This document shows positions 1 through 62,285 of a DNA stretch of 64,000 nt, in pieces. Source of the stretch: Sycon ciliatum. Taxonomy: Eukaryota > Porifera > Calcarea > Leucosolenida > Sycettidae. Under the pieces are notes generated by a model. It had not been told where the DNA came from. It did not search any database and worked only from the letters and a program-made list of their open reading frames with translations. Each line of letters starts with the position of its first letter. Position 1 is the stretch's first letter. The position numbers were made by a program, and so were the translations under genes. The DNA is taken from assembly GCF_964019385.1 (NCBI RefSeq), contig NC_088654.1, positions 19,089,333-19,153,332 of the forward strand, in the 5' to 3' direction.

Positions 1-117
1 TTTTACCTGCATGGAGATTTGGCGGCGACTCTTCCGACGAGCGGCTGCCAAATCACCCACCAGCCAGCCCGCATGTCTCGTAATACAACATGCACGAAAT
101 CAAAGTTTGGAATGAAG

Positions 118-2961
118 TCAAGAATTGTTCGGATCAGCTCGACTAAGTTCAGAACGACGGCGGAGCAGAGATGGGACAAGGGCCCTTTGAGCAGGGAGAG
201 TGGATAGCAGATGGCGCTGTACAGTAATCCTCAGTCGCTTCAGTGGTTCAGCGACACCACCATGCCGAATCATCAAGGTATTGAACTCTTTATGGATCGA
301 CTCGGCTCCATGCTCCCCAAGCAACCCAAGACCAACGTTAAACCTGGACATAAAATCTACAACATGCCTTTCTAATAAATGCAACTTGGGAGTGATATGG
401 CCCAGACCCCTTTCAACCACCTCACATCTGCAATGTATTAGAAATTCTGTTATTAGATCCTGCAACTCTTGACACTCCTGCTCAGTAACACTACTGCATG
501 TCGAGTAGCGTGCTCGGCATTGTGCAAATGATTCCAGCAGTGTGGTGTATCGTTTGGAAATACAGAGTGCATCAGCAGCCAGGGAGGGTCCCCGAGCCGC
601 AACTGTAGCAACCACTGCTGCCGTCAAGTCTGCAATCACCGACTCTGTCAGGGCTTTGTGCACGTGATTCCCCACAAAGGCACCACCATGGTATGCCTGG
701 CGGGTGATGTTGTGCCGTTGTAGAACAGGCTCCAGGCAAGAGGTGCAGGGACCATCTGCAATGGCTGCAGTGGACAGAGTCGCTTGGAGGCCCGTCAGCT
801 CCTGCTGCAAAACTGAGACTTTGGCGCTGGTCAATTGGCACTGCCGCTGTAGACCGCCGGCGAGAGTTTGCGGGCAAGCACCCTGTGCCTCGACAATGTG
901 GTGGTGGAGAGCAATCCACTCGAGGTGCACTCGCCAACTTGCAAGCTGTTGCTCATGTTCTGAGAGCTCTGCTTGCTTGGCTGCGACAAGTGCGTGAGTC
1001 TCAGTTAGCTTTGCGAACTCTGAAGAGTCATCTGCGTCGGCATGGGCAACGCGTGCCAGCTGAAGGTCAAGGTTGGAGCATTCCTTCTTCAGCGCCTCGA
1101 AGAGCCACACAAAGATCCCAAGATCAAGGTGCAGTGCTGGCAGTGATGCATGATCAATAGGGATGGGCAGGATTGCTGGTCGGATGGCGTTCCGGAACAA
1201 CTTCGCTCGTGGTGTTCTTGAGCCGTCCTGCACGAATGCTTGATGATCTGCTGCCAGTGTGGTGAGGGTGCGTGGTGGTGCGACAGAGATCTGAGCTTGC
1301 TTCATGCTAGCTTTAGTGGCAGTACAGTGCAAGCACGGGTGAACTCCGCTGGAGCCGGACAAACCATACAAAGTTGTCTGAAACTCGTAATCACCAAACA
1401 GTGTTACCTTTATTTTCTTGCCTTGCCACTCTGATGTGCGTAACAGGTTTATTTGTTGTGCAAATGGTGTCAGTGCAGTTGTGAGATTTGCAGGAGTGTC
1501 CTTTGCTGCAAAAACTAAGAACGGAATGGTGTTCTTCGTAGAATTTGGATTCAATAGGTTTGCTACTTGAAAACACATTTTGAAGGATTCCCCCCCATGG
1601 TCCCCCCCAACCTTCACAAGAACTTCATTTCCTGGCAAAGACTCATTGTGCCAAGTAAGTAACCCAGCTTTGTTGTACTCGTCCAAGTAGAAGTGAACGA
1701 GCTTCACAAGGTCTGCGCTTGCCACCATAGGTGCTTGAAGGACTTCACCATTTCTGGTGAGAAAGGGAACATTCTCCACAATGAAATCACTGGGTAGCTG
1801 CTCTACTACCTGCTCACGCATTTTGTGTTCTGACTCAATGCTGAGACCATAGGAATGCATCCACCTCCGAAGCTTGCGGAGTTGATTCCAAGGCATGTTC
1901 AAGTCTGTTTGCAATGACAAAGCAGCACTGGCAGAAAGAGATAAGCAGCCTACACCGGCATCTTTTAACAGCTGTTGTCGTTTCTCTTTGCTCAGCGAGC
2001 GTAGCTCCGCAGCATCCTGAGCATGCGAGGAACTAGCACTACCACACACTGTTGTTTTATGTTGTTGCAGTTCAGATGCTCTACGCTGTACTGTTCGTGT
2101 CGAGGCAGTGTCGCTTCCGATGCGTCCTTGCGTTGTGCGCGTAAAGGTCTGTGGAGGCCCCTTCGCAGATTGTCGAACCTGCAGAATGCCATCGTTAGCT
2201 TTTGCTGCGACTAAATGGCTGGTCAATCTCTCAGCAGCATCACCACACAGTTTTCTAGGTGACGCAGTCAAAACATCAGCCACTGTTGCTGACAATGGGA
2301 CATAAGGTGCAGTGCTAAATTTCCCAAAGGTACAATCAGCAACATGATCTTTTAGACTACCCAAAGGGAGTGTCTTCTGGCAGCCCTCAAACACGCTTGC
2401 ATGAAAGTCACATTTCACAGCAAGCTCAGAAATGCATTCATAAACAAACACTGGAACCTCCCGCAACGACGACGCCATAAGGGGAACTCGGCACATTGGG
2501 CAGGTGGCAGACTGTTCCAGCCAATGCCACACACAAGGAAAGCAAGTGACCTTCGAACAGCAAGGCACCTGTATAGCTTCATTTGCAACATGCAAACAGA
2601 CACCACAAATTACAGATGAAAAAGTCATAGAAAATCTTTCAGGAGCCAATACTTCACTGGCTTTCAAGGAAGGCATTGCCCGGCACTTGATTTCCTGCTT
2701 GTCATCCACATCTATGCCTGTGTCGACCCCGACCCCCACCCCGCTACGCCTGCTACCTATCTCACTGCATGCAGCATTCCCGTCATCGCGGAGAGTGAGT
2801 GTGCATGCGGAGCGTTCTGTGCTAACAGATGGTGGCTTTACCTTTTTCTCTTTTCCACCGATGCGTGTTCCCTTTTTCTTGCTGGGCCTACCTCTAGCTT
2901 TAGCACGGTACAGCCCCAGAAACCGCAGCACATTTTGCGGAAAGTGCGCCAAACTGTGCAC
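118..2961 (-). CDS. RAG1-like protein: RING/zinc finger plus DDE recombinase core, single open frame
   Basis: The frame has 947 codons. In order: an AT-hook-like basic stretch (about residues 22-30); a RING finger (first Cys pair C119/C122, CPMC at about 154-157); a second zinc-finger-like segment (about 184-210); a basic linker; and a core. In the core I see D454 in GGDHGG, D524 in LFGDYEF, C543/C546 (CLHC) exactly 19 residues after D524, H861/H866 (HLLERH), and E887 in GEHGAES, 21 residues after H866. As I know the family, vertebrate RAG1 has D708 followed 19 residues later by CxxC, then H937/H942, then E962 20 residues on, with a RING/ZnF N-terminus. The match in order and spacing is close. 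The region HLDLG (611-615) also resembles a conserved RAG1 segment. The frame's first codon is GTG. The first in-frame ATG is M96 (position 2676), just before the RING, so an upstream exon or a shorter 852-aa product is likely. It may be transposon-encoded (N-RAG-TP, Transib or ProtoRAG type) or a domesticated gene. No RAG2-like Kelch gene is visible. Confidence 0.75.
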   Translation of the reverse strand: MHSLAHFPQNVLRFLGLYRAKARGRPSKKKGTRIGGKEKKVKPPSVSTERSACTLTLRDDGNAACSEIGSRRSGVGVGVDTGIDVDDKQEIKCRAMPSLKASEVLAPERFSMTFSSVICGVCLHVANEAIQVPCCSKVTCFPCVWHWLEQSATCPMCRVPLMASSLREVPVFVYECISELAVKCDFHASVFEGCQKTLPLGSLKDHVADCTFGKFSTAPYVPLSATVADVLTASPRKLCGDAAERLTSHLVAAKANDGILQVRQSAKGPPQTFTRTTQGRIGSDTASTRTVQRRASELQQHKTTVCGSASSSHAQDAAELRSLSKEKRQQLLKDAGVGCLSLSASAALSLQTDLNMPWNQLRKLRRWMHSYGLSIESEHKMREQVVEQLPSDFIVENVPFLTRNGEVLQAPMVASADLVKLVHFYLDEYNKAGLLTWHNESLPGNEVLVKVGGDHGGESFKMCFQVANLLNPNSTKNTIPFLVFAAKDTPANLTTALTPFAQQINLLRTSEWQGKKIKVTLFGDYEFQTTLYGLSGSSGVHPCLHCTATKASMKQAQISVAPPRTLTTLAADHQAFVQDGSRTPRAKLFRNAIRPAILPIPIDHASLPALHLDLGIFVWLFEALKKECSNLDLQLARVAHADADDSSEFAKLTETHALVAAKQAELSEHEQQLASWRVHLEWIALHHHIVEAQGACPQTLAGGLQRQCQLTSAKVSVLQQELTGLQATLSTAAIADGPCTSCLEPVLQRHNITRQAYHGGAFVGNHVHKALTESVIADLTAAVVATVAARGPSLAADALCISKRYTTLLESFAQCRARYSTCSSVTEQECQELQDLITEFLIHCRCEVVERGLGHITPKLHLLERHVVDFMSRFNVGLGLLGEHGAESIHKEFNTLMIRHGGVAEPLKRLRITVQRHLLSTLPAQRALVPSLLRRRSELSRADPNNS

Positions 2962-3234: not shown

Positions 3235-3470
3235 AGTGATCCGCGTGACCATCAACCTCATCCTTGACGGCACCGTGTCTGCCTGGTTCACCGTGCTTCC
3301 TGATCCTCTGAGGCAGGAAGAATAATGTCGGCGGTGCAGTTAAAGTTCCACGATCAGTTGGCGATTCGGTATTGCCAAGAGCCGAATGCTCTCCCGCAGG
3401 ATTGCGATCATGGCTGTTGAGCTGCTTTTTCCCTGCAGGCTGGCCTTTGTATCGCGTCCAAGATCATTCG
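3235..3470 (+). pseudogene. Decayed LINE ORF C-terminal fragment
   Basis: Two adjacent frames give pieces such as VSAWFTVLP and then LKFHDQLAIRY followed by a Pro-Gln-Asp-Cys run. They line up with the C-terminal zinc-like domain of the better preserved LINE fragment at 52557-53846 (VSNWLSSMP, then SDFRDAVCIRY). A frameshift and stops break the reading. This is a motif match by eye over a short stretch, so the call is tentative. Confidence 0.4.
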
Positions 3471-12341: not shown

Positions 12342-14531
12342 TCAGGCAGAGATGATCTGTTCGGCATCACAGCGCTGGGCTTCATGGAGAAGTTCAGACA
12401 GCTGACCGGCTTCCCACATGTCCATCCGCCAAGTCAGAAGGCGATGGATGTCCTTCTCCTTGCGGATCATTGTGTTGCGCTGCAAGACCAAAGCTGCGAA
12501 GATGAATTCTCTCTCGGATGATTGGCGCTTGGAATTGCTTCGTTCGATTTCGTCGGCCAGGATGTTACAGAATCTTAAGCCAACATTTCCATCAGGAATC
12601 TCATACTGCTCGCCCCTGAGAGCTCCTGTCTTCCACCACAACGAGCGAATGTCTGAGTTTGGCCCAACTTCGCTTTTGACCAAGGGAGCCCTGTGCGCCT
12701 CTTGGAATTGGGCAGGGGGATAAGCAGACTTCCACAAGGATCCTGTCTTTCCTTGTGCCCCATCAGCAGGGTCCAACACACCTCCACCATTGCTTTCCGT
12801 AAGCGGACAATCTTCAGATCGGACTCTTCCATGCAGCGTCGGGAGGGCAAAGATCTGTTCAAATTCAGCGGTTGATATGGGACTCCAGGCAGAGATAATC
12901 TGTTCGGCATCACAACGCTGGGCTTCATGGAGAAGTTCAGACAGCTGACCGGCTTCCCACATGTCCATCCGCCGAGTCAGAAGGCGATGGATGTCCTTCT
13001 CCTTGCGGATCATTGTGTTGCGCTGCAAGACCAAAGCTGCGAAGATGAATTCTCTCTCGGATGATTGGCGCTTGGAATTGCTTCGTTCGATTTCGTCGGC
13101 CAGGATGTTACAGAATCTTAAGCCAACATTTCCATCAGGAATCTCATACTGCTCGCCCCTGAGAGCTCCTGTCTTCCACCACAACGAGCGAATGTCTGAG
13201 TTTGGCCCAACTTCGCTTTTGACCAAGGGAGCCCTGTGCGCCTCTTGGAATTGGGCAGGGGGATAAGCAGACTTCCACAAGGATCCTGTCTTTCCTTGTG
13301 CCCCATCAGCAGGGTCCAACACACCTCCACCATTGCTTTCCGTAAGCGGACAATCTTCAGATCGGACTCTTCCATGCAGCGTCGGGAGGGCAAAGATCTG
13401 TTCAAATTCAGCGGTTGATATGGGACTCCAGGCAGAGATAATCTGTTCGGCATCACAACGCTGGGCTTCATGGAGAAGTTCAGACAGCTGACCGGCTTCC
13501 CACATGTCCATCCGCCGAGTCAGAAGGCGATGGATGTCCTTCTCCTTGCGGATCATTGTGTTGCGCTGCAAGACCAAAGCTGCGAAGATGAATTCTCTCT
13601 CGGATGATTGGCGCTTGGAATTGCTTCGTTCGATTTCGTCGGCCAGGATGTTACAGAATCTTAAGCCAACATTTCCATCAGGAATCTCATACTGCTCGCC
13701 CCTGAGAGCTCCTGTCTTCCACCACAACGAGCGAATGTCTGAGTTTGGCCCACCTTCACTTTTGACCAAGGGAGCCCTGTGCGCCTCTTGGAATTGGGCA
13801 GGGGGATAAGCAGACTTCCACAAGGGTCCTGTCTTTCCTTGTGCCCCATCAGCAGGGTCAAACACACCTCCACCATTGCTTTCCGTAAGCGGACAATCTT
13901 CAGATCGGACTCTTCCATGCAGCGTCGGGAGGGCAAAGATCTGTTCAAATTCAGCGGTTGATATGGGACTCCAGGCAGAGATAATCTGTTCGGCATCACA
14001 GCGCTGGGCTTCATGGAGAAGTTCAGACAGCTGACCGGCTTCCCACATGTCCATCCGCCGAGTCAGAAGGCGACGGATGTCCTTCGCCTTGTGGATCATT
14101 TTGTTGCGCTGAAGGACCAAAGCTGCGAAGATGAATTCTCTCTCTCTCTCGGATGATTGGCGCTTGGAATTGCATCGTTCGATTTCGTCGGCCAGGATGT
14201 TACTGAATCTTAAGCCAACATTTCCATCAGGAATCTCATACTGCTCGCCCCTGAGAGCTCCTGTCTTCCACCACAACGAGCGAATGTCTGAGTTTGGTCC
14301 ACCTTCGTTGGATAAAGTGGTGGTCAACGAGGAGGACACGGCTTGAGAGGAGCTTTCAGTGCGACTCTGCTGGTTGCTGCACCGGCCGTTAGCACTGAGC
14401 ACACGTCCCTGACAACTGCGTCCGAGGCTAACACAGGAACATTTCGTACACGTTCCGTGTTTGTTGCAGGCACAGCCCTTCACTTGATCTCGCTTTCTCA
14501 TTCTCCGTCTGGCGTAGGTTCGATCAGCCAT
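12342..14531 (-). CDS. Cys-rich protein with four in-frame 181-residue tandem modules
   Basis: The 729-codon frame starts at an ATG. Residues 1-75 hold a basic N-terminus and a Cys cluster (GCACNKHGTCTKCSC, then C..C) that looks like a small zinc-binding domain. From about residue 76 a module repeats four times with a genomic period of exactly 543 bp (first unit 6 bp longer). Each module contains SLWWKTGALRGEQYEIPDGN, SEREFIFAALVLQRN, DIRRLLTRRMDMWEAG and EAQRCD. I associate this WW..L.G..Y..P.G / LQR..M..K..DIRRLL..RM..W signature with the N-terminal region of reverse-transcriptase ORFs in early animals, from memory and not checked. Units 2 and 3 are almost identical in nucleotide sequence, so the amplification is recent. 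No RT follows. It is either a LINE-derived fragment with internal amplification or an expressed repeat protein. Confidence 0.5.
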   Translation of the reverse strand: MADRTYARRRMRKRDQVKGCACNKHGTCTKCSCVSLGRSCQGRVLSANGRCSNQQSRTESSSQAVSSSLTTTLSNEGGPNSDIRSLWWKTGALRGEQYEIPDGNVGLRFSNILADEIERCNSKRQSSEREREFIFAALVLQRNKMIHKAKDIRRLLTRRMDMWEAGQLSELLHEAQRCDAEQIISAWSPISTAEFEQIFALPTLHGRVRSEDCPLTESNGGGVFDPADGAQGKTGPLWKSAYPPAQFQEAHRAPLVKSEGGPNSDIRSLWWKTGALRGEQYEIPDGNVGLRFCNILADEIERSNSKRQSSEREFIFAALVLQRNTMIRKEKDIHRLLTRRMDMWEAGQLSELLHEAQRCDAEQIISAWSPISTAEFEQIFALPTLHGRVRSEDCPLTESNGGGVLDPADGAQGKTGSLWKSAYPPAQFQEAHRAPLVKSEVGPNSDIRSLWWKTGALRGEQYEIPDGNVGLRFCNILADEIERSNSKRQSSEREFIFAALVLQRNTMIRKEKDIHRLLTRRMDMWEAGQLSELLHEAQRCDAEQIISAWSPISTAEFEQIFALPTLHGRVRSEDCPLTESNGGGVLDPADGAQGKTGSLWKSAYPPAQFQEAHRAPLVKSEVGPNSDIRSLWWKTGALRGEQYEIPDGNVGLRFCNILADEIERSNSKRQSSEREFIFAALVLQRNTMIRKEKDIHRLLTWRMDMWEAGQLSELLHEAQRCDAEQIISA

Positions 14532-15238
14532 CTTACTATACTATACTGTTACCAGTGTTGCAGCTTATACTTAGTATAGCAACAACCTAACTTCTATGTT
14601 ACTTGCTCGCTTGAGATTCGAAAACCCCACTATACGACTAGTCACTGGAAGACTCTATCACCATGATCACGGGAGAAGTAAAATTTGCTTCCGCTCTCTG
14701 CAGAATCTGAGCAGTCTGGCCACGATAGATCAGTTGGCCTTTGCCTTAGGCTTAGGCTTAGCTGTTTTACTTCTACACCCAGGAGCTGAGCAGTGAGTGA
14801 CTAGGCGCTAGGCTCCCACCCTGGTCTACACGTAGGTACTGGGTCTACCGTACGTAAGCCTACGCATGTAACGTAACCAGTGCAGTAAAATGGCCGACAA
14901 GTACAAGTGCTGGTTATTATTGGCCAGCGTGGCCGCGTGGGCCACACGTAAACCCATTACACATGATTGTAGGTAGACGATGACTTAATAATACTAATAA
15001 TACTCAATACAATAGTTAGGATACTAGATAGGCTAGTTATTGAGAGACTAGTAGTAGTAGTAGTATAGTACTCAGTAATCCCAAGTGGTCTGAACATGTC
15101 CACGCAAGATAAGGACGCTACGTGTGCTAGCTCTGCACTTGACAAGCGATGAGTCACGCACAGCCCACGTAACCATGGTAAACACGTCACGTACGTAGGT
15201 ACTAGTAGTAGTAGGTGAGGTGATGAGTCTGAGCATAC
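14532..15238. other. Intergenic, no supported gene
   Basis: The sequence is rich in CTAG and GTAC tetranucleotides. A TTAGGC triplet repeat at about 14749-14765 is too short to mean anything. No gene is seen. Confidence 0.35.
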
Positions 15239-15957: not shown

Positions 15958-16296
15958 GACACCCTTAGCAAACAACGGTAACGCTATTTTTTACGGTACT
16001 CGTACCTTGATCACCCAAATAGCGTTGAAGCTGCAGCGTATAAACGTTATGTGGGCTGATTTATCGTTGTGACCAACGGTACGTGTTTTGGCCAAATACT
16101 GCATAGTCCGTACGCATTTCACCTTGTATCGCGTATATGGTGACAACAATGGTTGTACCGCGCGAAATCAAAGCTATTCTCGTGGCAACAGCGTACTAAA
16201 AATAGCGTGCATCTTGCTAAAGGTCGAACCCAAATCACGGTATTTTCCCCCTTACGGTAATACCGTTGCAACATAACGTTGTTTGCTAAGGGTGTC
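15958..16296. mobile_element. Mariner-like MITE (TA TSD) inserted at the 3' end of the BEL ORF
   Basis: Inverted ends GACACCCTTAGCAAACAACG lie at 15958 and, inverted, end at 16296, with TA on each side (15956-15957 and 16297-16298). The 339-bp interior is non-coding. The Gag-Pol stop codon (TAG, 16286-16288) lies inside this MITE's terminal repeat. Removing the MITE would give a stop within two codons, so the protein end is barely changed. Confidence 0.8.
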
Positions 16297-19200
16297 TATT
16301 GAGATCACTTAGCCGGACTTCGGCAGAGGCTGGGAGAGTCACCTTGACTGCCGACGGTTCCACATCTAGGGGCACCAAGCGGTGGACGCTGCGCTTGTAC
16401 ACCTTCCCTTTGACCTTCACGTCCACTACGCGCACCTTCCCGTCCTTTCCAGGATACGTAGCGACCACTCGACCAAGCGGCCACTGAGTCCTTGGGAGCG
16501 ATTCGTCCAGCATCATCAGGATTTTGCCGACTGTAACCGATGCACTATCACGGTGCCACTTCGTCTCCAAATTGGCTCGAGCAACAATCTCGCGGAGCCA
16601 CCTCTTCCAAATGCGCTTCATCAGATCCTGAAGCAACTGCCAGCGACGATGCAGACCCCCCTCCGGGGTTGCTTCCAACGCTGTTGCAACTCTCGAATGG
16701 CCAACCAAGAAATGCAAAGGCGTTAGCGGCTCCAGGTCTTCACTTTCCTCCGAAAGCGTTGTCAATGGCCGCGAGTTGATGAGAGCCTCGGCCTGCACCA
16801 ATACTGTCTGGAGCTCTTCTTCAGTTAAATCAGCCTTGTACAGCACAGTCTGGAGAACTTGCTTCATGGAGCGCACGATCCGTTCGAACACGCCGCCGAA
16901 ATGAGGAGAACGAGGCGGATTGAATTTCCACTCAATCCCTTGGCCTGCATACTCCGATGTGAGGTCGGCATGGTCAAGCTGGGCGACTGCCTCCCTCAGC
17001 TCTCGCTCTGTCGCAACAAAATTGCTTCCATTATCAGTAAGCAACATCTCGGGTGTGCCGCGACGCTTGCAGAATCGCGTCAGGGCCATCTTGAAGCCAG
17101 TCGTGTCGAGAGAGGTAACCAGCTCCAAGTGACACGCTCGAGATTGCAAACACGTGAACACTGCCACATACCTCTTCTCTTGTGTACGTCCTCGACCTCT
17201 CTTCACTAGAAATGGTCCGGCGAAGTCCACAGCGGTGCGGGCGAATGCCAGAAGTGGTCCTTGCGTGCGGAGGTCTGGGAGAGGACCCATCCTGGGAGTG
17301 GCTGGTTTGCGCCACACCTTCTGACATCCCACGCAGTGGTGCCGATGTGACTTCACCATTTGCTTGCCCTTCACAAGCCAGTAGTGATCGGCGAGATTGG
17401 ACAGGATGTGATTCGTGCCAATGCTGTGTCGGCATCGCTCATCCTCTCTCCGAATGATCAGCTCTGTCACTCGGTGTCGAGGTGGTAGAATAATTGGCGA
17501 TCGAAACTCAGATGCCAAGTGGTAAGCCGTACGCAGTCTCCCACTAACTCTTAATACGGGGTATCCACTCTGTTCGTCGATGCGCGGTTGCAACTTGAGA
17601 AGAGGGGCGCTGCTTGGCAACTCCTTCCCTTTTCTCAGCGTGCTCGTCACTTCACCATAGCTCTCATCTTGCGCACGCATGATCCAATAGTGCTCCGCTC
17701 TTTCAAACTCAGCTGGTGAGAGCTCGGGCACGGCAACCTCCTTGCTGTTCTTGATTGCAATCTTCACACGGGCGTCGCTGAGCGTTAGCTGTGGCAGTCG
17801 GCTCTTGCGGCGATTGTGTATGGCACGCATGCACCAAGCCGTGACCCGCACAAGACGGCTCCACGAGGAATAGTTGTTTGGACTTAGCCGCAACGGTGGT
17901 GACATCATTGCCGTCATCGTGATTTCAGGAGTCTTGAGCATTTGTGGTAGCTCCTTCGGCACAGCTATCCTGCGATCTGGCCATTCGCTCTGTTGCTGTG
18001 CCAGAAACGATGGTCCATGCCACCACCTGCTCTCCTCTGCCAGCTGTGTGACTGTCATCCCACGGGTGGGAAGATCAGCTGGATTTCTGACTCCGGGAAC
18101 ATGACGCCAGTTCCGTGCCATAGACTGCTGTTGGATCTCCGATATCCGGTTGCCGACTTCCAGCTTGAACTTTCGGCTGGGTGATCGAATCCAATACTGG
18201 ACATTCATGGAATCGCTCCAGTAGTGGCTGTCGGCTGCTCTCACACCAAGAGCTTCGCTAACGTACGTCCCAAGACGCACACCCAGGACCGCTCCCTGCA
18301 GCTCTAGCATCGGAATGGATCGACGCTTGATCGGTGCTGGTCTTGCCTTGGCCATCACCAGGGTAACCTTCGCTGTACCATCTGGTCGCTCTGCTCGGAC
18401 GTATGACGCAGCGGCGTAGGCCCGTTCTGATGCGTCGGTGAACGTGTGCACACTCAGACCCATCGACGTTGTGCTATCTTGAAAACAGCGATCAATGCGT
18501 AGCTGTGTAAGCTTAGGCATCTCAGCAAACCATTCTTGCCAAGCTACCGCCGTCTCTTCAGGCAGTGGGTCGTCCCAGCCGAGCCCCGCAAGACATAGTT
18601 CCTGGAACAACAACTTGCTCCTGATGGTGAATGGTGCTAGTTGCCCTCTGGGGTCAAACAGTGATGCCATGCGACTGAGGACGGTGCGCTTCGTGCACGC
18701 AGCGGATGTGGGTTCCTGATAGTGAAACGTGAAATAATCTTCGCTGACCATCCACGTTACGCCCAGTGCCTTTTGTGAGGGCTGTCCAGACGACTCTTGT
18801 GCCGTTATGGACTTAGACGTGGCCGGCGCGCGGTGCTCCGGTGGAATTGATTCCATCACTGCTTCACTGTTGCTCAACCACTTCCGGAGATGGAAGCCGC
18901 CTTTCTTCAGGAGGTCTTGTAGCTGAGACCGAAGACGCATTGCTTTCTGGTCGTCAGGCAAGGACTTCAACATGTCGTCGACGTAGAATGCCTTGCGAAC
19001 TGTGTCACTGACTGCTGGGTCGTAGTTCGCTCCGAAACGCTCGGCCGTCTCCAGCAAAGCTCTGCCTGCTAGGTATGGCGATGCACGGATGCCAAACGCC
19101 AACCTGGTGAACTCATAGGCCTTGACTCCGTCCCCGGTCTTCCAAAGAAATCGGTGATATCTGCGATCCTCAGGCTGTAGTGATACCTGAAGGAACATCT

Positions 19201-22200
19201 CCGACACATCAGCAATCAGTGCCACAGGGTGCATGCAGAACCGGATCAGTACTGTGACGAGGTCATTCTGCAGTCGTGGCCCCGCGTACATGTGTTCATT
19301 GATGGACGTGCCGTTGAAGCGAGCTGCAGCATCAAACACAACACGGACCTTAGTTGTAGCCTTGTCTTCGCGGACTACTGCGAAGTGCGGCAGAAACCAT
19401 TGCTCACGGCCACATTGCTGGACTTGATCAGATGTCAGCTCCTGAATGTACGCCTTCTGTAGGTACTCCTCTAGCACCTTTGCATAGCGAATCTGAACGG
19501 TTGGTCTTCTCTCTAGAGACCTCAGTAGCGAACGCAGCCGATCCTCGGCCTGCACTCGGTTGCTCGTGATCTGAGGACGCGCTCCATTCTGCCAGGGAAT
19601 ACCGACAACGAATCGACCATCTGCGTACCCTAGCTGCTGTCGAGTCATTTCCTCAGCATGGCGTTCGTCAGGTGACAGGTAGCTCTCAGCAGACGGTTGC
19701 ATGCCGACCGCTTCCAAGTCCCAGAAGTTACGGACAAGCGAGTCGAGACCTGTCTGTGTTAGTTCCAGGGCATGATGGGTGTGCTGGACAGAGCTGTCTT
19801 GTATGGCTGAACCGAAACAGACCCATCCCAAGGGTGTGCGCCTTGCAATGGGCTCACCTGCCTTGCCAATCCGTTCTTCCTGTGCACTGTGCAGTGCTGC
19901 TGAATTTAGCCCGATTAGGATGTCGATGGCGCGTTGATTGCTTGCAGCAGGGAAATCAATGTCTGCTAGATGTGGCCACTGGTGACGCAGACGGCTCCAA
20001 TCAGCAACGTGCACGTCGCTTGTGATCTTTGGCAGCACATATGCCTCAACTTCTGATATCTCCTGGCTGTCATATTGATGAAGGGACAGAGACACCACCT
20101 CTCGCTCGCCTGAGAGAACTTGACCGCCTAGCACACCAACATGCACTGGCTTGCGCTCTCCTCGCAGCCGTAGTCGGTGTGCAAGCCTCTCTGTGACAAA
20201 GCTGCATGTTGATCCAGAGTCAAGAAGGACGTTGGCTGTGGCAGTCACTGTTCCATTTGCGACCCTCACCGGTATCGTCATGAATGAGGTCAAGCCGGCC
20301 TCGTCGTCATTGGCTGGCTGGGATTCGCTGTTCACATGGTGGCTAGCCTCTTTTCGCGTTGGTGGTGATGGTGTAAAACTGCCTTGTCGTTCACGGTGCA
20401 GTAAATGATGATGCTTGCCTTGACACTCTCGGCACACCGCTGCCATGCAGTCTCGTGCCCAGTGCCCATTTCCCAGGCAGTTGACGCATAGCCGTAGGTT
20501 CCGGATCGTGTCATTTCTCTTTTGCACGGGCAGACTCTTGAATTCGCCACAATCTGCAATATGGTGTGCACCCTCGCACTTACCACAGGCATGGCTGTTG
20601 TCTGCATGCTGTCTTTGCTCTGAGGCAGCTTGCTCTTTTCTGGAGTTGCTGCGGCTGCTAGAAGCGACCAAGTTACGTTTCGGCCCAGGCTGTGATGAGT
20701 CGCTTGATCGTGGAGTCCCAGGACTGGAGATAAACGTGCGCTCCCTGACTCCATATTGCCTGCTGGGCAACGGCCGATTACTCTTGTTTTGGTGCTCCTT
20801 GGGCTGCAGTGATACTGGTGGGCGGTCTCCCAGGCCAATTCGTTCCTCAACACGCATCTGCTTCTGGACGTGTGTTATTAGGAATTGCGAGAATGCCTGT
20901 ATATCACAGCTGGAATCATCATAACGATCGAAGTAGCGTGCCAGGAGCCGTCGAGGAATCTTCCGGGTTAGCGCCAGGTATAACTCTCTGCCTGGCTGCA
21001 CCTGGACTGCTTCCATGTTAAGCAGGGTATTGCGGAGCCGAATGGCGAACTTTTTCAGCTGGCTGACGTCACGCTCATTGGTCAAGACTGGCCACTCCAT
21101 GAGCTCTCTTTCCTGGTTGTTCAGCTCTCGGTCTTGGCCACCGTACCAGCGTTCCAACTCGGCCATGATTGCTTTATATGCGCCAGGTCCATCCAAGACA
21201 TCAGCAATCAGCTCCTCTGCAGAACCATCAGCAAGGGCCTCCCTCAGATGCGCAAGCTTGTGGTTCTCCGACATCGCGTAACTGTCGTCAATCAGCCGAA
21301 GGAAACGCTGCCGCCACTTCAGGTAGCTTTTCACCTTCCCATCAAACTTGGGCAGCTCTAACGCCTTCAGGTGACTGGTAACAGCATAAGGCGAGTTCCA
21401 TGGCATGAATCCAGGCGATGCCATCTGGTGTCCAGGCAGTGCCAGCTGAGGTCCAGGCAACAGTGTTTGCTTCGCTGGTTGGAATGGCACTGCTCCAGGG
21501 TTGAGTGAGAGTGTCTCAGTCATGGCACTGCACAGTGAAGCTGCTTGCTCGGCTTTGTCCTTGTTTTTCTGTCGTTTTTCTGATTTTTTCTTCTTCGGAG
21601 TCATCAGTCTTCTCGGTGCAGCGGGGCTTGGCTGGGCCTGTCCACTTGCTTCCAGCAGCATTGGACGCACGGCGCTACCAAGCACATGGACTTGCTGCAG
21701 CTGCTGCTGCCGTGACGGCTGTGACGGCGGCTGCTGTTGCTGCTGTGACGGCGGCTGCTGCTGCTGCATATGTACTGGCTGGGTAGTGCAGGCAGCTCCG
21801 CCTCTGGACGCAACTCCTGCGTTGGCCAGAGCACATGTACCAACACGCCTGGAAGCAGGCCCATAGTGACTAACAGTACTACTATCAGTGTGGCTGTTAT
21901 CACTTTCACCACTACTGGCGTTAGTTGTAGTTCCAGTAGTTGTAGAGTCACCAGCAGTGTCACTACTTGAGGCGCTACTGGATGACACATAGTGGTCTGA
22001 CTCTTCAGACACACCGTCAACGACGTCCGGGACATTCTGCGATAGCTGAGCAGCTGCTGTTCCTGCTACCAGTGTATTCACATTTTCAACACTGGTGCGC
22101 GCGAGTGGTAACGGGGGATCAGTCGTAAACCTACTACCGGTAACTGCACTGTCCGACTCCGCTCGTGGTGGCATACAAGATCGCAGAGTCGCACTTGCGC

Positions 22201-22564
22201 CGTCACGACTTCGTTGGAAGACCACGTCCCCGTCCGAAGCGATTTCTCTACGAGGCGACGGGCTAGCTCCTGCCGCCGACTCGTGCGCAGATTCTTCTTC
22301 GGAACGAGCTTGCTCCAAGGCTTGCCGTTTCTGCAGGACAGCTAACTTACTCTGCAGAACTTGTTCCTGCAGAGCAGCAATCTCTTCTGCCACTCGCACT
22401 TCGGCCTCTGCCCTTTTTCTGGCCACTCGAGCTCTCTCCAATTCTACGAGTTCAGTGCTCCCAGGACTGGCACGAGTACTCGAGCGCTCACTTCCAGAAA
22501 ATCCATATCGCTTGGGTTCCTTTCCTTTCGTCGATCTGTGGCTGATACGCCGCTCCTCACTCAT
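16286..22564 (-). CDS. gag-pol: BEL/Pao Gag-Pol polyprotein
   Basis: The likely start is the ATG at 22564 (MSEERR), downstream of LTR and PBS; the frame is open into the LTR but that part is not expected to be coding. The product is about 2092 aa. From the N-terminus: a Glu/Arg coiled region and Ser/Gln-rich stretch (Gag); zinc knuckles (CGKCEGAHH...C, CVNCLGNGHWARDC, then CRECQGKHH) at about 658-722; aspartic protease with LLDSGS at about 781; reverse transcriptase with the active site YVDD at about 1194; RNase H (FTDASERAYAA, about 1380); integrase with an HHCC-type zinc finger (HHCVGCQK, about 1745) and a DDE triad in AVDFAGP, LLTDNGSN and GGVFERIV (about 1779, 1844, 1894). It ends with a BEL-type C-terminal domain (WPLGRVV). 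There is no stop or frameshift, and all catalytic motifs are present, so the element may be autonomous. No env frame is seen. Confidence 0.93.
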   Translation of the reverse strand: MSEERRISHRSTKGKEPKRYGFSGSERSSTRASPGSTELVELERARVARKRAEAEVRVAEEIAALQEQVLQSKLAVLQKRQALEQARSEEESAHESAAGASPSPRREIASDGDVVFQRSRDGASATLRSCMPPRAESDSAVTGSRFTTDPPLPLARTSVENVNTLVAGTAAAQLSQNVPDVVDGVSEESDHYVSSSSASSSDTAGDSTTTGTTTNASSGESDNSHTDSSTVSHYGPASRRVGTCALANAGVASRGGAACTTQPVHMQQQQPPSQQQQQPPSQPSRQQQLQQVHVLGSAVRPMLLEASGQAQPSPAAPRRLMTPKKKKSEKRQKNKDKAEQAASLCSAMTETLSLNPGAVPFQPAKQTLLPGPQLALPGHQMASPGFMPWNSPYAVTSHLKALELPKFDGKVKSYLKWRQRFLRLIDDSYAMSENHKLAHLREALADGSAEELIADVLDGPGAYKAIMAELERWYGGQDRELNNQERELMEWPVLTNERDVSQLKKFAIRLRNTLLNMEAVQVQPGRELYLALTRKIPRRLLARYFDRYDDSSCDIQAFSQFLITHVQKQMRVEERIGLGDRPPVSLQPKEHQNKSNRPLPSRQYGVRERTFISSPGTPRSSDSSQPGPKRNLVASSSRSNSRKEQAASEQRQHADNSHACGKCEGAHHIADCGEFKSLPVQKRNDTIRNLRLCVNCLGNGHWARDCMAAVCRECQGKHHHLLHRERQGSFTPSPPTRKEASHHVNSESQPANDDEAGLTSFMTIPVRVANGTVTATANVLLDSGSTCSFVTERLAHRLRLRGERKPVHVGVLGGQVLSGEREVVSLSLHQYDSQEISEVEAYVLPKITSDVHVADWSRLRHQWPHLADIDFPAASNQRAIDILIGLNSAALHSAQEERIGKAGEPIARRTPLGWVCFGSAIQDSSVQHTHHALELTQTGLDSLVRNFWDLEAVGMQPSAESYLSPDERHAEEMTRQQLGYADGRFVVGIPWQNGARPQITSNRVQAEDRLRSLLRSLERRPTVQIRYAKVLEEYLQKAYIQELTSDQVQQCGREQWFLPHFAVVREDKATTKVRVVFDAAARFNGTSINEHMYAGPRLQNDLVTVLIRFCMHPVALIADVSEMFLQVSLQPEDRRYHRFLWKTGDGVKAYEFTRLAFGIRASPYLAGRALLETAERFGANYDPAVSDTVRKAFYVDDMLKSLPDDQKAMRLRSQLQDLLKKGGFHLRKWLSNSEAVMESIPPEHRAPATSKSITAQESSGQPSQKALGVTWMVSEDYFTFHYQEPTSAACTKRTVLSRMASLFDPRGQLAPFTIRSKLLFQELCLAGLGWDDPLPEETAVAWQEWFAEMPKLTQLRIDRCFQDSTTSMGLSVHTFTDASERAYAAASYVRAERPDGTAKVTLVMAKARPAPIKRRSIPMLELQGAVLGVRLGTYVSEALGVRAADSHYWSDSMNVQYWIRSPSRKFKLEVGNRISEIQQQSMARNWRHVPGVRNPADLPTRGMTVTQLAEESRWWHGPSFLAQQQSEWPDRRIAVPKELPQMLKTPEITMTAMMSPPLRLSPNNYSSWSRLVRVTAWCMRAIHNRRKSRLPQLTLSDARVKIAIKNSKEVAVPELSPAEFERAEHYWIMRAQDESYGEVTSTLRKGKELPSSAPLLKLQPRIDEQSGYPVLRVSGRLRTAYHLASEFRSPIILPPRHRVTELIIRREDERCRHSIGTNHILSNLADHYWLVKGKQMVKSHRHHCVGCQKVWRKPATPRMGPLPDLRTQGPLLAFARTAVDFAGPFLVKRGRGRTQEKRYVAVFTCLQSRACHLELVTSLDTTGFKMALTRFCKRRGTPEMLLTDNGSNFVATERELREAVAQLDHADLTSEYAGQGIEWKFNPPRSPHFGGVFERIVRSMKQVLQTVLYKADLTEEELQTVLVQAEALINSRPLTTLSEESEDLEPLTPLHFLVGHSRVATALEATPEGGLHRRWQLLQDLMKRIWKRWLREIVARANLETKWHRDSASVTVGKILMMLDESLPRTQWPLGRVVATYPGKDGKVRVVDVKVKGKVYKRSVHRLVPLDVEPSAVKVTLPASAEVRLSDLNRHP

Positions 22565-22600
22565 GGCGACGACTCTCAGCAACCACGGAAAGGCAAAAGG

Positions 22601-22618
22601 ATCCCGTCGGAGGTGCCA
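22601..22618 (-). promoter_or_regulatory. Primer binding site of the BEL/Pao element
   Basis: On the minus strand TGGCACCTCCGACGGGAT begins 5 nt inside the 5' LTR end. TGG at that place complements the CCA end of a tRNA. I did not identify which tRNA. Confidence 0.7.
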
Positions 22619-22623
22619 GTTTA

Positions 22624-23220
22624 TGTTACTTTTCCTCAGCGCCCAGGTCAACACACTTTCGTCAACACCGGGTTTCCGCACACAATCGAATCACAGTTCA
22701 GTTTTACTCCACTCCGGAGAACACAATTATTCAGACCAATGGAACATAGGAAAATCACAACAGCTACAAACTAACTACTTGTAGAATCTAGAGCTCAGGT
22801 CCAACACAATAACAAGAACCAAAACATTACCACGCGGCCAGCAACATGTGCATGCGAACAACTCACAGAACAAAAGGCACATGCTTCCAAAACCAATACA
22901 CACTCCGGCCCGGCCGGCCCGTGTCGCATATGCCAGCGATACATGCATAAAAGGAAGTACAGTGAGAAGGAAGTAACGCAGGTCACATGAAAGCGCGTAG
23001 CATTCCCACGTGTAAGCTAACACGCACCACAAATCACATATCACAGACACAGGGCCTAGGGCACAACTGCAACTGTGCACTACGCACACATTCAAATACA
23101 GCTGTAGACACGCACTGCATAAATCTACAAGTACTCGTACAAACTGTGCAGGTCAGCGACACCTGCAGCATCTGCTGGAACAATGGCACAAGGGAGTACT
23201 AAGAGTGAGAAAACGTAACA
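22624..23220 (-). repeat. 5' LTR of the BEL/Pao element (597 bp)
   Basis: TGTTAC...GTAACA ends; matches 15239-15832. It should hold the promoter for the minus-strand transcript, though I could not place a TATA box with confidence. Confidence 0.92.
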
Positions 23221-25655: not shown

Positions 25656-25786
25656 ACATGCGCGTTTGACCCATTTAGCCTCACAATTCATGGCAAACGA
25701 TCACTTTTCAAGCCTTCTTCACTTTGGGATTGAACTAACGACTAGCTAGATCTCTGCCGGAAAAAGATTTCGTATGAAATGCCTTC

Positions 25787-28431
25787 ATGGCCCATTTCAT
25801 AGTGGAAATAGCAGTAAACACAATAGATTGCCGTGATCACGAGCTCTTATGGATTTCCCTGGCAATGCACTCCGGAACAAAGACTGTTCTGGGTGCGCTC
25901 TACCGGCCTGGCTCTTGTGCAGAGACAGACACCAGCCTGATGGACTACCTAGACAACACTTTGGATGATGTCCGCCGTCTTGGCAGCAATGTGATAATTG
26001 CAGGGGACTTCAACGTGCATAATTCAGCCTGGCTACAGAGTAGCAAGACTACCCGAGCCGGTGAATGCCTGGAGGAAGTCTGCGCAGCACATCATCTTGT
26101 CCAGCATGTCACCCAGCCAACCCGCGGCAACAATACTCTCGATCTTATCATCTCCGATTTCCCACACCCCGTATGCACCACAGCCTATGCACCACTTGGA
26201 CGATCTGATCATGCCGTTATCATTGCCGAGTTTCTCCAACAGCATCCACGACGCGAAGATCCTGCTGTTCGACAGGTTTGGAAATACGCCCTTGCTGACT
26301 GGCACCGCCTGAGAGCCTACCTCCGCAACATAGACTGGCCCGCCAAGATCCATGGGTGTGCGGAGCAGTCCTGTCAGCGCGTAACTGATGTCATCATGCA
26401 TGGAATGAAACAGTTCATACCATCCAAAGAGCTTGTGGTGCACCAATCCAACCCTGTATGGTGGACACCGGACTGTTCTAACGCCAATCATGCCAAGGAG
26501 CGGGCATGGAAGCTGTGGCGACGCAATCCCCGCAACGATAACCACAAGGTCCAGTACATCACAACTGTTAACCACGAAGTGGAAGCGTGTCATGCAGCGC
26601 GATTAGCACATCAATGTAGAATTCGCAACAAGCTTACTGCAGGTTCCCTCCGGGACAAAGAGTGGTGGTCAACCATCAAGAGCGCAGCAGGCGAGGGACG
26701 TTGCTCTGACATCCCCCTGCTGACCAACCCTGCAGGACAAGAGTTCCACTCTTCTCGTGAGAAAGCCGAGTGCTTTGCAGCGCATTTTGCGAACAAGTGT
26801 AGCCTTGGCAATAACGACCTCTGTGCTGCTGACCTGCCTGACCTGCAACGACCTGCCTATGCCACGCTAAAGCACATTCACTTCCGCGCAGCAACGGTCA
26901 AACGGCACTTGGCGAACTTGGCTGTATCAAAAGCAACTGGACCGGATGGCATCTCTGCTCGTGTGCTCAAGATGTGCTCATCTGAACTTGCAGACCCACT
27001 GGCAAAGCTCTTCGCCATCTGCTTCTTAGCCGGTGTGCAACCTGGGGCATGGAAACTTGCCCATGTAGTCCCAGTTCACAAACGGTCCTCCAGATCTTTG
27101 GCATCTAACTACCGACCAATATCACTGCTAACGATCATGTCGAAAGTCATGGAGGGCATTGTAAACACGCAACTGGTTAACTACCTAGAGAAGCATGAGG
27201 TGTTGCCAAACAGCCAGTTTGGATTCCGACGTGGTAGAGGAACCGCAGATATCTTAACGGCTCTCCAACATGAATGGGTCCACACCATAAGTACTGGCGG
27301 TTGTGTCCAGGTCCTCGCCGTGGATATTGCCGGTGCGTTTGACCAGGTATCGCACACAGGAGTGCTGTACAAAGCAAAGCAGGCCGGCGTCGACGGACGC
27401 CTGCTTGTATGGCTACAGGACTACCTCACCAACCGAAACATCCGCGTTGTGGTTGGAGGCCAGACGTCAGATGCTCAACCCATCCAGGCTGGTGTCCCCC
27501 AAGGCAGCATCCTAGGACCCAGCCTCTTCCTTCTATACACCTGTGACATTGAACAATGTTTAACTCCAGGAACGCAGCTGAGCAGCTTTGCAGACGACAC
27601 CATACTCTACAGCTTAGTACAGCCAACTGACGATCTCCAACAGTCCACCGCCTCCCTCCAAGGGTCCCTCAACAGTCTTGAGGAGTGGGGCCGCAAGTGG
27701 CGTATCTGTTTTGAGCCAGCCAAGACACAGCGCATGACTCTACATCGCAAGCACGTTCCCCCCTGCACTCCACCAGTCACCTTTGGAGGTGAAGCACTCC
27801 AGGAGACAGATACCCTGAAGCTGCTGGGAGTCATGCTCGACCCTACTCTCTCCTACAGAGCGCACACTCGCAGTGTTGCACTGCGCGCCTCCCAAAGGCA
27901 GCACCCATCCTGGACGACCATGGTCGAGTGACGGTCTACAAGGGATTCGTGCGACCCCTACTTGAATATGCCCCACTGGCCTGGTCGAGCGCAGCCGCAA
28001 CTAACATGGCCCAGCTGGACAAGGTTCAGCAACGTGCCCTGCATTTCCTGGGACCTGGAACCATCCTCCAAAGTCTTCAGCTTCGTCGGATGGTGGCAGC
28101 CCTGTCATACTTGTTCAAGCTGCACTACATTCCAGGGCCTCCCCAGGTAAAGGCCATGCTGCCACCAACCAAGCCCCCTGCCGTAGCGAGCATGTGCACA
28201 CGGCAAAAACGTCAGACGCACCATGCCTTTCAGCTGAAGTGGACATCCCCTCGCACAGCCCCTGACTACCTCCTGCGATCCTTCCCCTTCTTCGCCATCA
28301 CACCCTGGAACAACCTGCCTGCGGACCTCCTGCTTCACGAGCCTCATTCAAGACGCCTCCAAACCTTCAAGGTCAACGTATGTAAGGATCTAATCCGAAA
28401 GAGATGGCTGTGGTCCACACAGTACCTGTGA
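25787..28431 (+). pseudogene. CR1/Jockey-like LINE ORF2, 5'-truncated and frameshifted
   Basis: The first frame (25787-27931) opens in the middle of the APE-type endonuclease: GDFNVHNSAW (about residues 73-82), NTLDLIIS (116-123) and SDHAVI (140-145) are present, but the N-terminal half is missing. The reverse transcriptase follows: KATGPDGISA (about 380), YRPISLL, DIAGAFDQVSH, AGVPQGSILGP and the active site FADD (about 600). At about 27893 the frame breaks within CCCAAAGGC. The second frame (27928-28431) continues with VTVYKGFVRPLLEYAPLAWS and the usual C-terminal tail (WNNLPADLL) to the stop. The comparison suggests a small deletion at the break. It is dead as a mobile element. Confidence 0.88.
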
Positions 28432-56004: not shown

Positions 56005-56428
56005 CTGCACCGTACTGATGGAAACAGACTTCGTTTGCTATAACTGAGATATTGGAAATATGATAAAGGATAGTGATAAATCAGCTGCAATCGTATACGC
56101 TCACAGGAAACACCAGGTTAGTCACCACGCACTAATACCACGCACTAATACCGCGCTTTGACCACCATGTTGAGCCACTTCCCAAATATATTTCCTTGGA
56201 AAAACTCGACTAAAATTCAAGTAGATAAATAGGAGAGCAAGAGGTTGCAATGAGGCAGTATTGTATAGTCCAGGCAAGGGGAGATATGATTTCTGTAAAA
56301 TAAAACTATATGGAAAAAGGCTTGGGGAAGTCTATGAGAAATAGGTCAAGATCGGATAGGCATGAGGTGCTGTACCTGGTCTCATCGAAGTAAACTAAGC
56401 ACGCACTTGAACATGCATAAGCATGCAT

Positions 56429-56441
56429 GAGCACACACACA

Positions 56442-56479
<38 letters not shown>
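56429..56479. repeat. (CA)n microsatellite
   Basis: Short (CA)n, the homologue of the much longer tract at 61534-61620 in copy B. Confidence 0.9.
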
Positions 56480-56598
56480 ATATATCATACCATATACGCT
56501 CGTCGTAAGAGAAGCACGCAAATCAGAAAAATGCACTGGACACACACATACACACGCACAAATCCTGTCAGCAAAACACTGCAGCATCAACACATTTT

Positions 56599-57141
56599 CT
56601 AGTGCAGCATCGCCAAGCTCTCCATATCAATGCCGTCTCGCTCAAAGCGCGACACCTTGGCCAACACCTCAGCCAGGGCTAGGTCATCCATGTCGTTAGC
56701 TTGATACATGGACACTCCGTCAATGGACGCCTGCTTACGCATGCCTCCTGCCAGCTGCACTCCGTTGAACTTGACGCGTACGGACTCGCGCATGGTCCTA
56801 CGTGTCAGAGTGTCCGGAACCCACGTAGCAAAGATGACCTTGTTGCGCTTTCCGCCGTTAGTTGTCGTGTACGGTAGGTTGACGATAGCCCAGCGGATGT
56901 CCTGATTCAGCCCGACAAAGTGAGCCAGCAGCTTTGCCCACAGTCCACCATCACCATTGTTCTCCTCCCAGTCGATGCTGGTCTCCGGCACGATCTCCGA
57001 CTCGTCCTCCGTCAGGCGGAACACGGTGGCAAAGTGTTTGGCGTTCGTCACCGCCTTCATGCTCGTCCACACGTCATCGTGCACCACTGGGTCCTTCTGC
57101 AACTCCACGGCTGTGACACGTGCACCGTTCTTGTTCTCCAT
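56599..57141 (-). CDS. ADF/cofilin-like protein, copy A (180 aa)
   Basis: ATG at 57141, TAG at 56599, one uninterrupted exon. An N-terminal segment (VHDDVWTSMKAVTNAKHFAT) is followed by an acidic loop and then RWAIVNLPYTT..GGKRNKV and IFATWVPDTLTRRTMRESVR, which resemble the central strand and actin-binding helix of ADF-H domains (as in cofilin: ..VFI.W.PD.A.I..KM..). At 180 aa it is longer than cofilin (about 140-165) because of a C-terminal helix rich in D, L and A (about 147-180). There is no signal peptide. The 5' flank is conserved in copy B for about 650 bp and may contain a shared promoter. The expected role is actin-filament binding, by family. An alternative is a coactosin-like or lineage-specific ADF-H variant. 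Confidence 0.6.
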   Translation of the reverse strand: MENKNGARVTAVELQKDPVVHDDVWTSMKAVTNAKHFATVFRLTEDESEIVPETSIDWEENNGDGGLWAKLLAHFVGLNQDIRWAIVNLPYTTTNGGKRNKVIFATWVPDTLTRRTMRESVRVKFNGVQLAGGMRKQASIDGVSMYQANDMDDLALAEVLAKVSRFERDGIDMESLAMLH

Positions 57142-57829
57142 ACTGACCGAGATATTATAGTTTTATTTTTTGTTGGAACTAGGAAGCAGGATTTTTCTAC
57201 CAAATCAACACTATTTCAATGATGCTGTGAAAACTAGTGAAATACAGGCTCTCGGTAGTATACCACTGAATGAATTGAAATTGAAGATTAATTGGGCGGT
57301 AGTCCAAGCGATTAGTTTACAAGTTAGTTCTTGCTTGGCTATCTGACTTGAATCTTCTCTTCTTTCTTTTCTGCTGCGTCTCTGACTGGAAGCATTGCTC
57401 TGTGCGAGCTTATATCGTGCCGGTGCGTTCGCTGACGCGATACATCGTGTCGTAATCCAGGTCGTTTTAATTACGCGCTTCTGCCCACGCGCGCGCTGCC
57501 ACAATTCTAACACGACCATATTGGGCCAGGTCGATGGCCCACAACGTATCAGTTTTGCTGCTCTGGCAAAGCTCACATCAATAAGAGAGAACAGAACAAT
57601 AGCGCGTCCGCATCACCTTCCGAGAACTATCGTCAGTATTGGCAAATGTCGAAACTGTGAGTGTGAAATGAACCCACGTAGAGTCTACGTCTCTGTGTGA
57701 AAAAAGTAATCATCGACGATTCCAATTTCTTACGTCATGATGATGTAATGGGGTCGGCGAGTGTGACGTCTGAGGTGTGATTTTTCGAGTAAATCACGGA
57801 AATCCAACAAATCATTCATATCAAACTCC

Positions 57830-60705: not shown

Positions 60706-61533
60706 GATAGCTTACCAACCCAACTTACTTCTAAAGCAGTATACCAATTTGAGTGTCGACAATGTGGTAGGACCCTTTTCATTTTTGTTACTGCACACTG
60801 TTTTCCATACTATTGATAGCGATTAAATAAATTAGCCAAGTGTCCGTTCAACTCTTGATTGTGATTCTAAGATTGTTGTCTCCACGCCACTTGTTTAATT
60901 ATGCAAACAACATTAAAAAGCTGTTTGTAGCCCCCAAAGCACTGACACTCGGACGGAGTAACTGCACCGTACTGATATATGATGGAAACAGACTTTATTG
61001 GATATAACTGAGAGACTCGCAATACGATGATAAAGGATAGTGATAAAACAGCTGGGGAAAAGATACGCTCAGAGAAAACACCAGGTCTGTCATAGTGCGC
61101 TAGCACCACGCTCTTACCACCATGTTGAACCACTTCGCAAAATAATATTATTATTATTATGTGCTTGTTCGCGTAGACATCAGCATGGCCTGCAGCTGCA
61201 TTAATGGGCATGCAAATCATGCAAACCAGCCAAAAATGTTCGCATAAGCCACTTCAAAATAATATAGCAGTATATTTCCTTGGAAACACTTAAATAAGAT
61301 AGATAAATAGGAAAGCAAGATGATACAAGGAGGCAATACTTTATAGTCCAGGCAAGCGGGGAGATAAATAAGATGTCTGGAAAATATAGTTATATGGCAA
61401 TATTCAAAAAGAAAGAGACTTGGGGAGGTCCATGAGAAAAAAAGGTCGAGATAGGATAGGCATGACGTACTCGAACTGATCTCATCCAAGTAAGCTAAGC
61501 CCACATTTGAACATGCATAAGCATGCATGTGCA

Positions 61534-61548
61534 CACACACACACATAT

Positions 61549-61620
<72 letters not shown>
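61534..61620. repeat. (CA)n microsatellite, expanded
   Basis: Uninterrupted (CA)n from about 61551 to 61620, just 3' of copy B's gene. Confidence 0.93.
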
Positions 61621-61625
<5 letters not shown>

Positions 61626-61663
61626 TGATCCTGTCAGCCACGAAAACACCTAAGACCAACTCA

Positions 61664-61764
61664 CTTTCTAGTGCAGCATCGCCAAGCTCTCTCTAGTGCA
61701 GCATCGCCAAGCTCTTTCTAGTGCAGCATCGCCAAGCTCTTTCTAGTGCAGCATCGCCAAGCTC
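61664..61764. repeat. Tandem repeat of the copy B gene's last codons and stop
   Basis: TAGTGCAGCATCGCCAAGCT and neighbouring bases (unit about 25-27 bp, holding the final SLAMLH codons and the stop on the minus strand) occur four times in a row. The first on the coding strand is the real end; three extra copies follow the stop. Confidence 0.9.
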
Positions 61765-62285
61765 TCCATATCAATGCCGTCTCGCTCAAAGCGCGACACC
61801 TTGGCCAACACCTCAGCCAGGGCTAGGTCATCCATGTCGTTAGCTTGATACATGGACACTCCGTCAATGGACGCCTGCTTACGCATGCCTCCTGCCAGCT
61901 GCACTCCGTTGAACTTGACGCGTACGGACTCGCGCATGGTCCTACGTGTCAGAGTGTCCGGAACCCACGTAGCAAAGATGACCTTGTTGCGCTTTCCGCC
62001 GCTAGTTGTCGTGTACGGTAGGTTGACGATAGCCCAGCGGATGTCCTGATCCAGCCCGACAAAGTGAGCCAGCAGCTTTGCCCACAGTCCACCATCACCA
62101 TTGTTCTCCTCCCAGTCGATGCTGGTCTCCGGCACGATCTCCGACTCGTCCTCCGTCAGGCGGAACACGGTGGCAAAGTGTTTGGCGTTCGTCACCGCCT
62201 TCATGCTCGTCCACACGTCGTCGTGCACCACTGGGTCCTTCTGCAATTCCACGGCTGTGAAACGTGCACCGTTCTTGTTCTCCAT
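61743..62285 (-). CDS. ADF/cofilin-like protein, copy B (180 aa)
   Basis: Same length and frame as 56599-57141. By eye the proteins differ at only three positions: Val to Phe near residue 9, Asn to Asp in the GL(N/D)QDIRWA segment, and Asn to Ser in TT(N/S)GGKRNK. All ADF-H-like motifs are kept. An intact frame with flanks that have gained indels suggests that both copies are under selection or that gene conversion has acted. No intron lies inside the CDS. Confidence 0.6.
   Translation of the reverse strand: MENKNGARFTAVELQKDPVVHDDVWTSMKAVTNAKHFATVFRLTEDESEIVPETSIDWEENNGDGGLWAKLLAHFVGLDQDIRWAIVNLPYTTTSGGKRNKVIFATWVPDTLTRRTMRESVRVKFNGVQLAGGMRKQASIDGVSMYQANDMDDLALAEVLAKVSRFERDGIDMESLAMLH

Follow-up and report, generated by a model that had tools for sequence, protein, structure and literature searches.

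The Chapa-RING-Chapaev architecture, in which a Chapa domain, a RING and a Chapaev-type DDE core follow one another in a single protein, is already known, also from outside Bilateria: the accessible text of PMC4411706 described two subgroups in 2015 from the lancelet and the starlet sea anemone. The Pfam family DUF1280 corresponds to putative Chapaev transposases and shares a clade with RAG1 (PMC3985635, available portion), and the part of PMC12730594 that is open gives as a definition C(2)C and H(3-4)H motifs between the second D and the last E. Both DUF1280 and RAG1 domains have been counted in Hydra genomes (PMC7642931, in its accessible part).

We analysed the window, a stretch of 64,000 nucleotides from the calcareous sponge Sycon ciliatum, in which a sequence-only reading had proposed a RAG1-like recombinase with both halves of RAG1, in a host that might be non-bilaterian. 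The host is indeed non-bilaterian. The element is very probably a Chapaev DNA transposon copy that inserted recently and lacks its 5' part; intact members of its family encode Chapa, RING, a further finger and a DDE core. Compared with the lancelet and sea anemone elements, as far as the open text of PMC4411706 describes them, the order of Chapa, RING and Chapaev core in one protein is the same; the differences are the sponge host, presence at more than 100 places, recent movement and, in the window copy, the loss of Chapa. With the published sea anemone elements, a non-bilaterian case was already known. What is new here is the sponge host, the high copy number, the recent movement and the internal-deletion copies; a literature search, to which subscription journals and Repbase Reports were largely closed, found no report of this family in sponges.

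Results

The minus-strand frame at 118-2961 is open for 973 codons from stop to stop and encodes 947 amino acids counted from a GTG, a Chapaev-type transposase whose first domain is absent. The transposon copy itself occupies 1..2903 (minus) within the window, where it matches its sister copy L002 at 99%; its 5' end is missing. The match to the sister begins at residue 21, and codons 1-20 (2902..2961, minus) are probably flanking sequence and not transposase, because they are absent from the sister copy.

From its start the predicted protein carries a RING-like zinc finger, C119-C157 (2491..2607, minus; ligands read from the translation), with Pfam RING matches at residues 117-160 that stay below the cut-off (zf-RING_2, E 1.9e-4). 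The usual RING histidine is replaced by K137, so that the C3HC4 pattern is incomplete, and the alignment shows this ligand kept in 5 of 19 full-length relatives. A second zinc-finger-like segment (2332..2412, minus), with C184, C194, H206 and C210 picked by eye from the translation, matches the finger that follows the RING in RAG1 in a profile alignment to RAG1 101-381. The RING and second finger that had been noted thus stand, the RING without its canonical histidine. DUF1280 matches residues 340-508 (1438..1944, minus) with 60.7 bits and E 2e-16 (Pfam). To judge conservation in the core we used an alignment, A1, of 46 rows, comprising the window core and 45 of the 60 proteins found, the other 15 being left out. 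The putative first and second catalytic aspartates, D454 (1600..1602, minus) and D524 (1390..1392, minus), and both members of the zinc pair C543/C546 (1324..1335, minus) are conserved in 46/46 rows each. Among rows with a letter, H861 is conserved in 44/44, and H866 of the same HxxxxH motif (364..381, minus), E883 and the putative final catalytic glutamate E887 (301..303, minus) in 43/43 each (gaps in 2, 3, 3 and 3 rows). This invariance of triad and zinc residues is therefore not due to chance. The frame and all seven residues lie where the sequence-only reading had placed them, and its spacings are correct: D524 lies 19 residues before C543, as in RAG1, H861 and H866 are five apart, and E887 stands 21 past H866. 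The protein has the C(2)C and H(3-4)H motifs of the published definition (translation and A1).

The family is abundant. In the genome searched (538 Mb, 313 contigs), the window protein has at least 50 matches (48 of 1,004 candidates scored), DUF1280 at least 150 places (150 of 231 scored; 74 of the 150 listed sit in open frames 1,000 codons long or longer) and RAG1_imp_bd (PF12560) at least 122 (137 of 255 scored). Matches to DUF1280 and RAG1_imp_bd also lie within frames of 2,445 and 1,979 codons at G000:C10:9815196 and G000:C5:21708332, which could be fusions. Three subfamilies have sharp shared ends and near-identical copies: A (about 4.09 kb), B (3.84 kb) and C (mostly 3.75 kb). Their 5' end is CACGGCTGTT or CACTGCTGTT and their 3' end its complement, giving CAC...GTG ends with the CA..TG inverted repeat; the window copy keeps the 3' end alone, outside the window. 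Two copies at different genomic places, L004 and L005, show no difference over 4,094 bp, so their subfamily moved recently. Short frames with Chapa alone were considered as a separate gene family and rejected: the two inspected, L045 and L046, which share 97.5% identity over 2,060 bp, are internal-deletion copies in which Chapa is retained while RING, finger and some of the core are gone.

Target duplications were read on these three related subfamilies, the window's own having no two-ended copy in the genome listing. Among 24 copies of A, B and C, one end was not found in L009 and L011, and the remaining 22 gave 20 distinct flank pairs; L014 (related to B) and L028 (related to A) were kept outside the count. 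The 20 independent insertions comprised 16 with exact 4-bp duplications, one with 5 bp and three with none, against a chance expectation for exact 4-bp matches of 20/256 = 0.08. Chapaev transposons duplicate 4 bp of their target. Transib duplicates 5 bp (PMC8355894, accessible text), the length typical of Transib and RAG1 and found here in 1/20 insertions.

DUF1280 was found in all 46 rows of A1 and RAG1_imp_bd in 23 of 46 at E up to 0.1, some rows, including the window's, having no N-terminus. The core had been read as that of a RAG1 relative; with its DUF1280 match and the mostly 4-bp duplications it belongs to Chapaev, and not to RAG1, Transib or ProtoRAG. CACTA had been named as an example of an unrelated transposase family that would speak against the original reading; Chapaev is grouped with CACTA and Mirage, and these in turn with Transib and RAG1 (PMC12730594, open portion), which goes halfway towards refuting it.

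We next compared the core with RAG1 itself. Profile-profile alignment (hhalign) to 24 vertebrate RAG1s, taken from 120 proteins listed, gave E 9.8e-4 over 462 columns, with a probability of only 21.8%. The two cores align colinearly: D454 falls on platypus D606, which we take to be mouse D600, CxxC on CxxC, LHLDLG on LHCDIG, and HxxxxH and E887 on their RAG1 counterparts. D524 lies four columns from the second aspartate of RAG1, and two columns from it when the 46-row core is used. Of the triad proposed to coincide with D600, D708 and E962, the outer two residues are thus aligned and the middle one is displaced; the CxxC, HxxxxH and final E held to be shared with RAG1 do fall in register, in a weak alignment. 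The raw score of 39.5 compares with a mean of 18.4 (sd 3.2, max 33.1) for 60 column shuffles, 21.8 (sd 3.7, max 34.9) for 60 block shuffles and 16.1 for the reversed profile. The 46-row core scored 35.3 with a probability of 13.2%, against 40 shuffles with mean 19.1, sd 3.3 and max 27.6. We read the homology of the core to RAG1 as real but remote, because the scores exceed all 160 shuffled controls, yet the probability is low. When A1 was searched against the Protein Data Bank (PDB), a second, weak stretch of 8.7 bits placed HxxxxH on that of RAG1 and aligned E887 with the second E of SEGNES; entry 6oem shows Q at this position, presumably the inactive E962Q form of RAG1.

Could the element nevertheless be a true member of the RAG1/Transib/ProtoRAG family in a sponge? 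The RAG1-type N-terminus of its relatives (below) and the colinear core alignment speak for such membership, and L031, a C-terminal fragment of the family elsewhere in the genome, exceeds the Pfam RAG1 cut-off (27.6 bits against 25, E 1e-6) as the sole match of a RAG1-core search of the genome (7 of 7 candidates scored). The duplications, however, are of 4 and not 5 bp, and the window protein has DUF1280 and no match to the Pfam RAG1 core (PF12940) at E up to 10. A core-only profile (A3, 16 rows), searched against the PDB to an E of 10, did not recover RAG1; its 13 matches were mostly coiled coils by name and position. No match to RAG2 (PF03089) was found in the genome, in a search whose controls likewise gave none. 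Direct identity with the RAG1 core is ruled out by duplication length, DUF1280 and the core-only PDB search, and we consider membership of this family very improbable.

The Chapaev copy in the window is damaged. L002, the best sister among the matches listed, is 99% identical over 3,078 bp. Similarity ends at window position 2903, where L002 continues with a methionine and a Chapa domain, to a 5' end that is CGGCTGTT-like with outermost bases unlike those of the other subfamilies. Chapa has no significant match in the rest of the window (the best hits reach E 0.52 with blastn and 2.0 with tblastn), and the PF12560 places among the matches listed include L002 and not the window copy; Chapa precedes the RING in L002 and is gone here. 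The 3' end of the window copy, ATCAGCCGTG, is located 276 bases ahead of the first base of the window. The frame is thus an incomplete gene that has lost its Chapa part and 5' end, and a RAG1 N-terminal zinc region joined to a core, as originally claimed for this frame, is found in full-length relatives and only in part in the window copy. By itself this copy should not move, because only the 3' end is present. L002 has its own defects, a 670-bp repeat and a frame broken near the C-terminus; a third relative is 88% identical.

A frame that stays open for 947 codons despite the loss of the element's 5' part might suggest a domesticated host gene, and not a transposon copy. The 3' terminal repeat, however, remains attached, and with 99% identity to another copy, youth alone accounts for the open frame. 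The differences from L002, four silent changes and 15 replacements of which 8 fall at the L002 frame break (residues 843-851), are too few to show selection. We therefore find domestication hardly credible for what appears to be a young, truncated Chapaev copy.

The N-terminus of the family is of RAG1 type, as had been proposed. Searched against PDB sequences, the A1 profile ranked RAG1 (9jpu_A) first, with a single stretch of 100.8 bits (i-Evalue 5.2e-28) over RAG1 101-381, which spans Chapa, RING and finger; outside RAG1 the top score was 47.5 bits, for a RING2/BMI1 chimera. RAG1_imp_bd matches in relatives reach E 2e-14. Twelve Chapa columns invariant in the 19 full-length relatives, which include two starfish, fall on eleven invariant residues and one nearly invariant residue of the 24 vertebrate RAG1s. 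Profile-to-profile comparison of full-length relatives with RAG1 gave 99.65% and E 3.9e-25, and most of this similarity is carried by the N-terminus, because the core alone scores far more weakly. The window protein alone matched TRIM37 best (E 2.7e-6), with RAG1 (1rmd, E 0.0043) one of many RING matches, a weak rank that is expected because Chapa is lost. That ranking would fit an unrelated RING and finger, acquired independently by Chapaev and like RAG1 by chance, an explanation that the continuous match in the relatives, far above other RINGs, and the coincident invariant columns make extremely improbable.

We also observed a sub-threshold match of the insect zf-AD domain to Chapa (P0004, residues 32-69, E 2.2e-3; 2 of 46 A1 rows at E up to 0.1). 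The RAG1 N-terminal (Chapa) domain may possibly be kin to zf-AD/ZAD; a literature search found no paper on such kinship.

The window holds several other features. A short stretch at 3247-3396 recurs at several genomic places with 71-89% identity. A 732-codon frame at 12342-14540 (minus) consists of repeated, nearly identical stretches, with a weak AAA_3 match over 20 residues only. At 16286-22690 (minus), a 2,134-codon frame of a BEL/Pao-type retroelement matches Pao peptidase A17, DUF5641, DUF1759, integrase, aspartyl protease and reverse transcriptase, and at 25778-28431 (plus) there is a non-LTR retrotransposon with reverse transcriptase and endonuclease in a 717-codon frame followed by a 212-codon frame. 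A duplicate about 5.1 kb apart, at 56336-57460 and 61436-62605, has three blocks 87-100% identical and a 187-codon frame in each part; the frame in 56336-57460 matches cofilin/ADF (E 3.8e-11), and the pair appears to represent tandem actin-binding protein genes or exons.

Discussion

Intact members of this family make one protein, in which a Chapa zinc domain, a RING and a further zinc finger precede a DDE core that includes a C2C/H4H zinc site. The transposase would most likely bind the CAC(G/T)GCTGTT inverted repeats, and D454, D524 and E887, given their invariance, may hold the metal ions that cut the element out. The excised element would then be joined at a new site with a 4-bp stagger, as the duplications indicate, in cut-and-paste transposition by a DDE transposase. 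By analogy with RAG1, the zinc module at the N-terminus probably has a part in assembly, nuclear entry, ubiquitin transfer or turnover.

Vertebrate RAG1 has the same Chapa-RING-finger N-terminus and the same colinear series of D, D, CxxC, HxxxxH and E in the core. It differs in that the sponge core is only remotely alike and belongs to a transposon with 4-bp duplications, and in that the window copy has no Pfam RAG1 match and a replaced RING histidine. Transib, TransibSU and ProtoRAG resemble the sponge elements in their CAC..GTG-like ends and C2C/H4H motifs (PMC12730594, accessible part); Transib duplicates 5 bp (PMC8355894, likewise in part) where the sponge elements mostly duplicate 4, and the RAG2 that would recall ProtoRAG was not found in the sponge genome by a search that lacked a working control. 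N-RAG-TP of Aplysia carries RAG1 N-terminal-like sequence on a transposon, as do the Chapa-keeping sponge copies L045 and L046; the open text of PMC8355894 describes it as N-terminal sequence only, whereas the DDE core is complete in intact sponge members.

When 28 cores were placed in a maximum-likelihood tree, the window row grouped with 8 Sycon-named rows and 10 others in one clade of 19 (100/100 support), and starfish, sea urchin, lancelet and snail rows, with two others, fell outside it. This topology, with thin sampling, speaks against a recent acquisition from starfish, sea urchin, lancelet or snail hosts. A second protein search (A2) gave 4 rows from the matches listed among 7,996 candidates and has no bearing on distribution.

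Two views of the origin of the RAG1 N-terminus have been put forward, each as given in the accessible text: in one, Transib fused with N-RAG-TP (PMC8355894); in the other, the fusion is ancestral and belongs to the Chapaev/Transib lineage (PMC4411706). Our comparisons support, without proving it, the view that a Chapaev-type transposase already carried the RAG1 N-terminus before bilaterians arose. It is possible, and we put it forward tentatively, that a complete Chapa-RING-finger was fused to a Chapaev-type DDE transposase before the sponge split and retained along the sponge lineage; both halves of RAG1 would then come from one ancient transposase lineage, or Transib would have taken its N-terminus from Chapaev, and RAG1 would not be a late deuterostome fusion.

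The sponge family is a useful outgroup for the origin of the RAG1 N-terminus. It presents the zinc module of the RAG1 N-terminus on a recently mobile transposon with many copies, in many diverged natural variants. L045 and L046 illustrate how full Chapaev elements can give rise to Chapa-only ones, and may serve as a model for an N-RAG-TP-like origin.
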